From: Cherax quadricarinatus
Lineage: Eukaryota; Arthropoda; Malacostraca; Decapoda; Parastacidae
Reading direction: 5' to 3'
Assembly: GCF_038502225.1 (NCBI RefSeq)
Contig: NC_091292.1
Coordinates: forward strand, 50,066,879-50,130,878
Length of the DNA: 64,000 nt
In this document: in pieces, positions 9,596 to 14,171 of the stretch
How positions within the stretch are numbered: the stretch's first letter is position 1
How the letters are laid out: each line of letters begins with the position of its first letter
Made by a program: the position numbers and the translations under genes
The notes under the pieces: model-generated
The model's database searches: none
What the model was told of the DNA's origin: nothing
What the model saw: only the letters and a program-made list of their open reading frames with translations

Positions 9596-10621
9596 ATTAG
9601 GTTATGTATATATGTAGGATGTAACTACACCTCTCATTGTGCTTGGTGATGGAGAATTATGATTGGCTGCCAGCATTTGTAAGCTACCTATCCACTCATT
9701 AGGCAATTTTGTGTGAGGCGTTGTCCTTGGAGTAGGTGCAACAAGTCACATGATTTTGCCTGATACCAGAGCTGCAGTCCTTGCCTCGACCTCTCTTTAG
9801 CACTGTTTCTCAAAGTAGAAACATCTCTCACTGGCTGTTGTTCAGGGTGGCAGCATGCTTAGTCTGCTGTCATCTCTTGTGATTTAGACTCTGTTTTTGG
9901 TAGAGTATGACTTCGTTGGGGAGCCAAGACATACTTACCCTTACTCTGCAACTCTGTTCACAGAACATCACATAGACTTAGTGATATTTGATGTTTTGCA
10001 GAGAGGTTGTGTGTCTTGGAGATGCACTTTTCGGCCCTGGTCCCTAGTTAAACATCAGACCTACATTTATTGAGGAATCTGCACTAGTCAGGGTTTTTGG
10101 TAATGCCAAGCTTAGTTTCAATGTTAAGGAAGTTTTATGCCTTTGTGGAGCATCTACTGATAGTCCCCAGTTAGGGTCATTGTTTTGTTCCTTGTTTCTG
10201 GCCTAACGCTGTGCTGTTCACCTCTGCTTCGTAAATTATTGCTGTTTGGCGAATGGTTCGTCATATTGTTCAAGCAAGCTGCTTGATTGCCTTGTTGGTT
10301 GAAATGTTAGATTATTTGGGGACTTGTTGCCTGTCACTGTTAAAGTGTAAGTCGAGTCGAACCTGAAACATAACGAACACATTGAACACATACACACATT
10401 CTCAAACACGCTTGTATCTACTTATATTATTCAAATACTAAAGTGTATTTCATAGCAACGTAGCAGACGGTACTTAGAGTCGTATTGCTATTAAATTTGC
10501 CCTCAGCACTATACTATTTTATGTGCAATTTAACTACGACATAAATGTATACAAAGTTATATTCCAAGAGAAGTGTAGGAGTGTATCTCCTTAATTATGC
10601 AAAATATATTAACTTTGCTTA
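9596..10621. other. Unassigned non-coding stretch, about 1 kb
   Basis: No coding frame, repeat family or RNA gene recognised. Base composition is balanced and there is no simple repeat, so this may be single-copy DNA. Confidence 0.4.
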
Positions 10622-10664
10622 TGAAGATTGAGACACTTATGCAACATATGCGAATCTTTATTCA

Positions 10665-10699
10665 GGAAACGTTTCGCCACACAGTGGCTTCATCAGTCC
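10665..10699 (-). ncRNA. Hammerhead ribozyme motif, intact core (left arm)
   Basis: On the minus strand this is identical over 35 nt to the motif at 11,030-11,064: GGA, CUGAUGA, a 5-bp stem II GCCAC/GUGGC with loop UGU, then GAAAC, GUU and UCC. All invariant core bases are present. Stem III is only AC/GU and palindromic, which fits dimeric hammerheads known from Penelope-like elements. Cleavage would follow the second U of GUU. Confidence 0.65.
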
Positions 10700-11029
10700 A
10701 ATACAAAGCAGAAAGTATAAGGAGAGGAGGAGTATGAGGTAATCAGTCCCTCAGCCTGGAGTCGATGTGTTCAGTCCATCAATCTTGTAGAATGTACAGC
10801 ATAGGGCCGTAGACGTGGCTTACATACTGTAGTCAGGTGAGGCGAAGCAGGATGAGGCGGGGTCACAGTGGTACCATCCACTAGTCGAAGTAGGTCTTTG
10901 TCTAAAGGTTGGACAAGTGTTGAAGAATACTTTGTAACAAGATCCCATGATGGACTGAACACATCGACTCCAGGCTAAGGGACTGATTACCTCATACTCC
11001 TCCTCTCCTTACACTTTCTGCTTTGTATT

Positions 11030-11064
11030 GGACTGATGAAGCCACTGTGTGGCGAAACGTTTCC
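11030..11064 (+). ncRNA. Hammerhead ribozyme motif, intact core (right arm)
   Basis: Stem I is GGA (11,030-11,032) with UCC (11,062-11,064); the core CUGAUGA is at 11,033-11,039. Stem II is GCCAC/GUGGC, the core GAAA starts at 11,054, and the cleavage triplet GUU is at 11,059-11,061. The core is consensus at every position. Stem III is minimal and self-complementary (ACGU), so activity would probably need a dimer. Activity is inferred and not shown. Confidence 0.68.
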
Positions 11065-11232
11065 TGAATAAAGATTCCCATATGCTGCATAAGTGTCTCA
11101 ATCTTCAACTTGTCGGTTTTCCAAACCATTCATCACAACTTTTTTACTATTATATTCCCTAGCTCCTTCATTTTTTAGCTTTAGAATATTTACATTATTC
11201 TTAAATCTAGTTATAGATTCACTATAAATCTT

Positions 11233-12000
11233 ATGATTACAAGCATTGATCCTGATACCAACCTTTTACTAAATGACTCAAATGAATCTAACAGCAACTG
11301 TAATTACTACACAGCAGAACAAGCAAAGGCACTTCTCAGAGCCAACAACAACATAACTGTCTTTAACTACAATGTCAGATCTTAAAGCAAACATTACGAT
11401 GACCTCATAGCATTACTAAATTCCCTGCATGCCAGTATGTCCATCATTACTCTCACCAAAACCTGGCTAAAGCCAGACACTACAGATGCCTATGCCATTC
11501 CTGGTTACACAGCCATACACAACTGTAGGCCACATCAACAAGGGGGTGGCACAGCTATATACTACTCAGACCAACTAGAATGTATCAATAATACTTGCAC
11601 AAGGGATGAACATGAGGAATATATAATAGCTAAATTCAAATCCAATTACCTACAAAAACATCTCACAGTGATAAACATCTACAGAGTTCCACAGTCAAAA
11701 ATTAGCCGTTTTAGTGAAAACCTAGGAAGTATGATAACTGATGCACGCATGAACAAAGATCACTTACTACTCACAGGAGACTTCAATATAAATCTCCTGC
11801 AAGACCAGGACCCACATGTAACTGAATTCACAAACACTATGAGTAACTGCTTGTTGCTACCAACAGTAACAAAACCTACAAGAATCTCTGAGGCTAGTGT
11901 TTCCCTATTAGACCACATCTGGACCAACACCATATCCCCTTCAAATCAGGAATAATCACAGATAACACCACAGACCACTTCCCTACCTTTCTCATAACCA
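11233..12000 (+). pseudogene. LINE APE endonuclease domain, one nonsense codon and a frameshift
   Basis: The frame from ATG 11,233 is open except for TAA at 11,383-11,385, just after NYNVRS (the N-containing first APE block). It resumes in the same frame through TKTWLKPD (the E of the usual TETW is K here), LLLTGDFNINLL (GDFN catalytic block) and LLDHIWTN. The frame shifts near 11,936, after which SGIITDNTTDHFPTFLIT (the S/T-DH block) is read in another register. The Glu to Lys change alone would kill the nuclease. Confidence 0.85.
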
Positions 12001-12866
12001 ATCTCGGTAAATTACCCCAAGACACTACTAAAGTTACCTTCAGACATCATAATGAGACACCCATTAATAACTTCACTACAGCAATGACAGACATCGACTG
12101 GCAAACAGAGCTAGAAATCTATACAGATACTGATGAATGTATTAAGAATTTTGTAAAAAAGGACCCAATACCTCTATAACAAGCACTGCCTTAAAAAAAC
12201 TAAACAGATCACAGCTAAGAGACTGAACAGTCCCTGGCTAACACCCAGCATCCTCAAATCCATAAATATAAAGCACCTATATGAAAAACAGTACAGAATG
12301 GGCCAAATAACCAGAGACCAAACAAAACGTTACTCGTCAATCCTAACCAGCCTGATAAGAAGGGCAAAAAATTGTATTATGAGAACAGATTATCCAACTT
12401 AAAACATGATATAAAAAAGACCTGGAAAACCCTATCTGAAATTCTAGGAACAAAAAAGATATCAAGAAATGGAACAATCAAACTAACTAAACCAGATGAA
12501 CCCCTAGTCCCACTGACTTAAACAGCAAACAAACTCAATGTTTTCTTCTCCACCATAGGAAAAAACCTGGCAAGCGAAATCCCAAGCTCAAACACCCCAC
12601 CAAATGACTACCTCACTGGCACCTACCCGAATACACTATTCCTAGCTCCGACCAACCCAACAGAAGTCTCACTTATTATCAACACACTAAAGAACAAGGC
12701 AGGAGATTTAAATAACTTACCACCCTATATATACAGAAAAGCTTCACAAGTACTGTCACCAATCATTGCAACACTCTTTAACAGATCCATAGAATCCTCT
12801 ACCTTCTCCACAGTTCTCAAAATAGCAAGGGTCACCCCAACACATAAAGGTGGAGATCAAGCAGAC
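12001..12866 (+). pseudogene. LINE linker and RT N-terminus, broken frames
   Basis: Between endonuclease and RT, short open pieces in changing frames read NSPWLTPSILKSI, RYSSILTSLIRRAK, KTWKTLSEILGTKK, LNVFFSTIGKNLA and IATLFNRSIESSTF. These are typical of the segment between endonuclease and RT in this LINE group. Stops at about 12,178 and 12,520 and a frameshift near 12,370 separate them. Confidence 0.7.
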
Positions 12867-14171
12867 TTGAATAACTATAGGCCAATATCCAACTTACCCC
12901 TTCTCTCTAAAATCTTTGAAAAATTAATTCATAAGCGAATTTATTCCTACCTCATCTCCCACAACATACTCAACCCCTGTCAGTTTGGGTTCAGGCCTAA
13001 TAAAAATACGAATGATGCTATTATACACATGCTTGAACAAATATACACTGCACTCAAGAAAAAAGAAGTCCCATTGGGGATCTTCATTGATTTATGTAAA
13101 GCTTTTGATACAGTTGACCATGATTTGTTGAACATAAAATTATCACACTATGGTATAAGAGGGCACTCCCTCAACTACCTAAAGTCATACCTTAGCAACA
13201 GAAGCCAATATGTGTACACAAATGGAGCAAACTCTTCCACACAACCAATTACAGTTGGTGTCCCACAGGGAAGTGTCCTTGGCCCTCTTCTCTTTCTCAT
13301 TTACATAAATGAGCTACCAAATGCATCGCAACTACTCAAACCCATACTATTTTCAGATCACACTACATACGTCTTCGCTCACCCAAGCCCAGTCATACTA
13401 GCCAATACTGTAAATACTGAATTACAGAAAATATCTACCTGGATGATGATTAACAAGCTTACTCTCAATATTGACAAAACCTACTTCATTCATTTTGGAA
13501 GCAGAATCACAAATGTTCCACTTAACATAATGATAAACGGTTCACCTGTGACTAAGCTCACAGAGGGAAAATTCTTAGGAATCCACCTTGATAATAGACT
13601 CAAATTTCAGCCACATGTACAACAAATTTCCAAGAAAATCTCCAAGACCGTAGGCATACTATTGAAGATACGGTACTATGTTCCACAATCAGCACTCCTT
13701 GCCCTGTATCACTCACTCATTTACCCCTATCTCACCTATGGAATCTATGCATGGGGCTCAACAACAATAAATCATCTCAGACCATTAATTACCCAACAAA
13801 AGGCTGCAGTCAGAATGATGATAAATTCCCACTCCAGGCAGCATACTCCACCAATATTCAAAACTCTAAACTTACTCACTGTACAAAACATCCATTCTTA
13901 TCATTGTACCTACTACATACATAGACCACTAAACTCAGATATAAACCCTCCCCTCAAACTTCTCCTTACCAGCCTCAACAGAACACATGGCCATAACACA
14001 AGGCACAGATCACTCTTTGATATTCCCCGTGTCCATATCACACTATGTAAAAACTCAATGCACATAAAAGGCCCAAAAATCTGTAATTCATTACCTGTGA
14101 ATACAAAAAAAACACTGTTTATCAATTCAAGACCCTTCTTAAAAACCACTTACTTACCCACAATTAAATAA
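12867..14171 (+). pseudogene. LINE reverse transcriptase, open frame but mutated active site
   Basis: This is a 434-codon open frame. Blocks in order: NNYRPISNLPLLSKIFEKLI, QFGFRPNKNT, GIFIDLCKAFDTVDH, VGVPQGSVLGPLLFLIYIN, then ILFSDHTTYVF, where FADD is expected, and GKFLGIHLDN and QSALLALYHSLIYPYLTYG. The start used here is internal, since coding homology extends upstream to about 12,540 in the same element. FADD has become FSDH, removing one of the two adjacent metal-binding Asp residues, so the enzyme would be dead in spite of the open frame. Confidence 0.88.

Follow-up and report, generated by a model that had tools for sequence, protein, structure and literature searches.

A palindrome carrying two hammerhead motifs in a 64,000-nucleotide stretch of Cherax quadricarinatus DNA (NC_091292.1, positions 50,066,879 to 50,130,878; hereafter the window) is one insertion of an ORF-less, hammerhead-bearing family of Penelope-like elements (PLEs). 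From the anatomy and the counts observed across the genome, it is likely that members of this family insert by two-ended PLE priming, that the two copies are joined at their 5′ ends and that the palindrome arises at insertion. Judging from the form of the palindrome, both ends of a cut chromosome may usually receive a copy of such an element simultaneously.

An inverted-repeat search of the window identified the left arm at 10622-10781 (-) and the right arm at 10948-11107 (+) as reverse complements of 160 nt, which are 98% alike with four ungapped differences and lie 166 nt apart. The inverted arms described in an earlier note on this DNA could thus be confirmed, but the right boundary given there for the palindromic element (10622-11107) was too short, since comparison with other copies showed that a tail extends the insertion to 11137. 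This 30-bp PLE-type tail at 11108-11137 (+) contains the hairpin GGTTT-TCC-AAACC at 11115-11127 and has no counterpart at the left copy. When the unit was compared by blastn with a 378-nt monomer taken literally from locus L020 (positions M), it resolved into an antisense copy of M18-M348 joined to a 5′-truncated sense copy running from ∼M182-189 to M377. The longer antisense copy occupies 10622-10952 (-), with its tail-less 3′ end at 10622, and the apparent spacer between the arms is the remainder of this copy, which is missing from the shorter one. The inner head-to-head junction with microhomology lies at 10937-10952 (blastn overlap of 16, with M18 meeting M182). A TATA-like TATGTAA at 10820-10826 (-), which corresponds to TATATAA at M144 of the L020 monomer, is likely the pLTR promoter. 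No ORF was found within the unit. Possible target duplications, AACTTTGCTTA on the left (10611-10621) and AACTTTTTTA on the right (11137-11146), are degenerate and not significant alone, their best score of 6 reaching only the 95% level of the null. Elsewhere, a search of the window gave a weak GIY-YIG fragment at 723-815 (-; 38.7% over 31 aa, E=8e-5), which may derive from an old PLE, and fragments of non-LTR retrotransposons, in which endonuclease and RVT_1 domains were identified, lie just right of the insertion at 11386-14171.

The 27-nt core CTGATGAAGCCACTGTGTGGCGAAACG is present exactly in both arms, at 10670-10696 (-) and 11033-11059 (+); no other site in the window matched it with up to three mismatches and none was found in 100 shuffles. 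As the earlier note had stated, each arm contains CUGAUGA, a 5-bp stem II (GCCAC/GUGGC) and GAAA, and the motif therefore has the CUGANGA...GAAA core with stems I and II that defines a hammerhead. One unpaired A sits between CUGAUGA and stem II, and stem III is minimal. Hammerhead rules predict cleavage after GUU, between 10668 and 10667 in the left arm and between 11061 and 11062 in the right arm. The note had counted a failure of covariance models against the motif, and indeed the Rfam hammerhead models gave no match in the whole window at the gathering threshold and none at E<=10 in 10500-11200 or 11005-11095; covariation between families, however, supports the fold. In 24 motif representatives, hand-chosen from 67 on condition that stem II was paired and position 8 was a purine, stem I was paired in 91.7% of cells and showed changes on both sides in all three of its pairs, the core pair 3-8 was C-G in 13, U-A in 9, U-G in 1 and another combination in 1, and the whole motif was 91.9% paired compared with 33-55% when slid. 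Because the representatives were selected for a paired stem II, this stem is not independent evidence. U3-A8 covariation occurs naturally and such pairs are active in vitro, according to the part of PMC3088659 consulted. Since the Rfam models do not match, the motifs are regarded as putative hammerhead ribozymes on the basis of the core and the covariation. Single-strand folding of the 47-nt motif (z -2.23) formed stems I and II and paired the core GAUG with the cut-site strand, and this result does not decide for or against the active fold.

The motif has a gap of 14 nt and was therefore missed by a core pattern in which the gap was set to 12 nt. Neither exact motif patterns in viral and prokaryote collections nor phage blastn gave a match; the motif letters, as printed sequence, had no match in the literature searched. 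The cut lies 26 nt from ATG, which was considered as a match to Poseidon of Anolis (PAc) and rejected, since in PAc C3 and G8 precede the start codon, which is not so here. In family C, a related PLE-type family, one pattern was present in 19,811 copies with up to one mismatch; among the 100 places listed, position 3 was always T, and position 8 was A in 96, G in two and T in two. U3-A8 in place of C3-G8 was observed in the PLE-type families C (L003, L006, L010, L049, L077, L090), D (L032, L054) and E (L044, L045, L091). The reasoning of the earlier note that a transcript spanning both arms would fold back is sound, and a hammerhead within the palindrome could act only in a transcript containing one arm.

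In the 3.95-Gb assembly, 74,927 cores with up to two mismatches were counted, 37,495 on the (+) and 37,432 on the (-) strand, while the reversed pattern gave 0 and 0. The same locus apparently lies on two contigs in the cases L018/L025 and L020/L023, so that genome counts may include duplicates. Some copies are tandem: among 12 same-strand pairs within 600 bp the spacing was 378 in six and 371-372 in three. In the L020 monomer the core starts at M274.

Orientation was studied in a position sample, for which the exact cores on contig C1 were taken in the order listed up to the hundredth and all 60 of their clusters were fetched. As the sample was picked by position and exact core, it is independent of structure. 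Neighbouring motifs within 600 bp formed 37 pairs, of which 25 were head-to-head ('-+'), 12 direct (8 '++', 4 '--') and none tail-to-tail ('+-'), and the expectation that hammerheads usually occur in direct orientation thus fails for this family. The 60 clusters comprised 65 blocks, 42 of them antisense-sense ('-+'), 10 '-', 6 '+' and 7 complex, and no block was purely '+-'. Target duplications, called at a score of at least 9, were identified in 27/42 '-+', 0/10 '-', 2/6 '+' and 1/7 complex blocks, compared with 1.2% of 975 mismatched flank pairs used as a control, in which the maximum score was 14. In this count two of the '-+' blocks, both from L088, share one duplication that is counted twice, and that of L081 consists simply of an AT repeat. 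The commonest duplication lengths are 12-13 bp. A convincing duplication was missing from 15 of the 42 '-+' blocks and likewise from the window's own copy. Solitary blocks accounted for 16 of the 65, and the duplications at two of the six '+' ones (L040 and L065) indicate that single-ended insertions also occur.

To score the tails, the position-sample loci were pooled with 30 loci picked by similarity, which gave 73 '-+' rows after the second L088 copy had been dropped. A duplication was present in 46 rows, and in 43 of these both ends could be resolved (26 in position-sample loci, 17 in the similarity set). Exactly one tail was found in all 43, on the left in 26 and on the right in 17, while an independent choice of tails would give one tail in at most half. 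L018 and L025 share flanks and are probably one insertion on two contigs, which leaves 42 independent insertions. Of the 27 rows without duplication 17 were resolved, and 12, including the window copy, had one tail, four had two and one had none. Two of the features by which PLEs are recognized are present: a tail of ∼30-40 bp at one 3′ end together with a target duplication was found in 43/43 resolved insertions with duplication, with the tail present and the duplication weak in the window copy, and the repeats of the family are of the pLTR type, truncated at the 5′ end and arranged either directly or inverted. While the inner ends vary, the outer ends fall at two fixed sites. The tail arm was the longer one in 24 of the 43 insertions, the tail-less arm in 14, and both were equal in five; in the 14 with a longer tail-less arm, neither arm is a copy of the other.

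Blastn placement of 78 head-to-head junctions, which is exact only to a few nt, revealed many different 5′ ends. In the position sample 35 of 90 5′ ends fell in M170-200, where 7.4 were expected; this region lies ∼30 nt past the TATA box and would fit transcription starts. In the small sample of junctions (n=14) at which each arm resembles the monomer to 90% or more, the median overlap was 3.5, compared with a median of 0 in 300 simulations (rank test, p=0.004), and the mean was -0.4 compared with 1.2, because two junctions carry filler of 20 and 33 nt. The identity between arms was 0.967 within a copy and 0.889 to other copies (mean of medians, 41 pairs, subfamilies pooled), and within-copy identity was often 100%. 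As the junctions vary and the arms are most alike within a copy, each palindrome looks newly made, although the similarity within a copy could also be increased by conversion between its arms.

A GIY-YIG search (PF01541) gave 14,992 genome candidates, and among the best 150, which were scored and listed, all 27 neighbouring pairs within 6 kb were '-+'. One GIY-YIG copy was read and is a head-to-head palindrome, 99.3% alike, with GIY-YIG at 37.6 bits, a tail at one end only and 15 letters, ATGTTATCTATCATG, common to both outer ends. It is called a PLE on its GIY-YIG domain, tail and anatomy, the RT lying beyond the piece read. Its 3′ end is 75% identical to the monomer over 57 nt (E 6e-4). Downstream of the motif, the tail hairpin was identified in six families, of which the GIY-YIG family is one (28, 16, 10, 3, 1 and 2 occurrences), and its pairs change between GGTTT/AAACC, GGTTC/GAACC, GGTAT/ATACC and GGTA/TACC; the search required GTCGGT and left the second strand free. 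For family C, 22 '-+', 1 '+-' and 1 '++' pairs within 6 kb were observed among 100 listed places. The loci were fetched with 1.5-kb flanks, and L001-L090 contained 53 ORFs of at least 160 aa. Among the 20 that were domain-searched, GIY-YIG was identified in three (L045, L046, L071), RVT_1 in six and other domains or none in 11; none of the 20 was assignable to a copy of the window family, and within these flanks and these 20 of 53 ORFs no autonomous copy with the exact window hammerhead was found. An autonomous PLE has its own ORF with RT and GIY-YIG, and since the window element has none, it is considered a PLE derivative.

The earlier note had proposed a non-autonomous palindromic retroelement, and its retroelement character is borne out, as the family is Penelope-type, has no RT inside the unit and forms retroelement-like, genome-wide repeats with target duplications. 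Whether the palindrome also transposes as one unit, as the note supposed, could be judged from its copies. The unit is not a single occurrence, which the note had named as evidence against its reading: a search with the 486-bp unit gave 2795 genome candidates, and among the 40 scored, 22 including the window's own copy cover at least 450 bp, the 21 other places being 84-94% identical. In addition, nine loci have the junction ends M18 and M182-189. Transposition of a fixed unit does not, however, account for junctions that differ widely or for a tail that may lie on either side (26 left, 17 right). Moreover, in six copies with the window's junction ends the within-copy identity of 0.964 exceeded that between arms of the same type (long-long and short-short, 0.917), which equalled that between long and short arms (0.918). 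It follows that the window-type junction probably recurs at microhomology, and mobility as one palindromic unit is considered quite improbable. In a further model, cDNA or antisense RNA would fold back and be copied on itself, as proposed for rotifer PLEs in the section of PMC3846280 consulted. The high and often perfect identity of the arms within a copy would be expected from such self-priming, and 29 of the 43 insertions are compatible with it, but in the other 14 the tail is on the shorter arm and each arm holds sequence missing from the other, and the outer ends lie at two fixed sites. Fold-back copying is therefore regarded as unlikely, and because it fails for these 14 insertions, coupled two-ended priming is favoured.

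The family is dense, with six '+-' pairs within 6 kb among 100 listed matches, and two unrelated insertions could meet by chance or be brought together by an assembly artefact. Against this, no tail-to-tail but 25 head-to-head pairs were observed within 600 bp, one duplication encloses both arms in 27/42 blocks and the arms of one copy have a common source, so that such an origin is very improbable for a palindrome of this kind and unlikely for the whole family. Inverted ends and target duplications are also known from DNA transposons, and the unit might be taken for a MITE with 160-bp terminal inverted repeats. This identity has hardly any probability in view of the variable inner 5′ ends, the tail at one end only, the tandem 378-bp monomers and the GIY-YIG-encoding relative with the same anatomy.

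For coupled two-ended priming, the following course may be envisaged. A dimeric PLE RT-endonuclease, supplied in trans, would cut both target strands with a stagger, and each 3′ end would prime reverse transcription of RNA from the same source, with one start beyond the tail hairpin and the other before it. The two cDNAs would then be joined at their 5′ ends by microhomology. The RNAs may start within the monomer, ∼30 nt downstream of its TATA box, which would explain the common inner ends near M173-192, and the hammerhead probably trims tandem transcripts. The enzyme in trans, the division of labour in the dimer, the start sites and ribozyme activity are the parts that we infer, the first because no copy with the exact hammerhead and its own ORF was identified. 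According to the part of PMC11167929 consulted, the PLE protein of the anole acts on both strands, cutting as well as extending them, a dimer is predicted, and reverse transcription starts internally at two sites between which the tail lies. The outer ends observed here correspond to two sites of this kind, and a complete insertion has one end at each. Since the strands in that study show no start-site difference, in the portion consulted, the asymmetry of the tail must come from coupling within one reaction. The pairs with no duplication, the single-ended insertions and the two-tail (four) and no-tail (one) pairs speak against the model.

A wider generalization, for which the evidence is evenly balanced, would be that PLE retrotransposition is normally a coupled two-ended process in which the two RT starts used by a dimer flank a conserved tail hairpin, so that each event that runs to completion yields a palindrome with one tail; among the users found here, ORF-less hammerhead RNAs exploiting GIY-YIG PLEs would be the most abundant. 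As single-ended insertions exist, the term is normally and not always. The ∼75,000 hammerhead cores of one type form a natural record of orientation, single tails, microhomology and start-site-like 5′ ends, which makes two-ended target priming directly testable as a model and suggests a route by which retrozyme-like RNAs could be mobilised.

Inverted pLTRs with a one-sided tail are already known for Penelope (PMC3846280, PMC8969392, in the parts consulted), and retrozymes are a known case of hammerhead monomers that have no ORF (PMC7229834, likewise). In what was seen of PMC3846280, the pLTRs of rotifer Pen2a_Av and other Penelope inverted pairs are most often head-to-head, as here, an optional 31-bp tail lies at the 3′ end of one inverted pLTR and promoter motifs lie within the pLTR, both as in the window family; several elements have target duplications of 8-10 bp, compared with the peak of 12-13 bp here. 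The window family differs from these elements in its lack of an ORF, its tens of thousands of hammerheads and its single tail in 43/43 insertions. With PAc, as presented in the part of PMC11167929 consulted, it shares GIY-YIG relatives, the tail between two RT starts on cut and extended strands and a hammerhead near the pLTR-ORF border; joined two-ended products do not appear in that part, and the window element differs in having no ORF and another hammerhead position relative to the start codon. Neither the window unit nor a strict one-tail rule was found in the literature searched, and as far as these searches went the combination, its scale and the one-tail regularity are new. The window family also has the small, ORF-less tandem monomers with a type I hammerhead that characterize animal retrozymes, whose RNAs of ∼170-400 nt (PMC7229834, in the part consulted) include the size of the 378-nt monomer. 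In contrast to those retrozymes, inverted pairs that carry a PLE tail make up most of the blocks sampled here; the terms 'inverted' and 'orientation' are absent from that paper.

Further observations were made at other loci. At L082:1047-1417, eleven ∼33-bp tandem units are made of M317-M349, apparently a small satellite born from the 3′ end of the element. On contig C84, L016 and L017 are inverted copies that give the same matches and are separated by ∼1.5 kb, so that the palindromic insertion lies within a larger palindrome.
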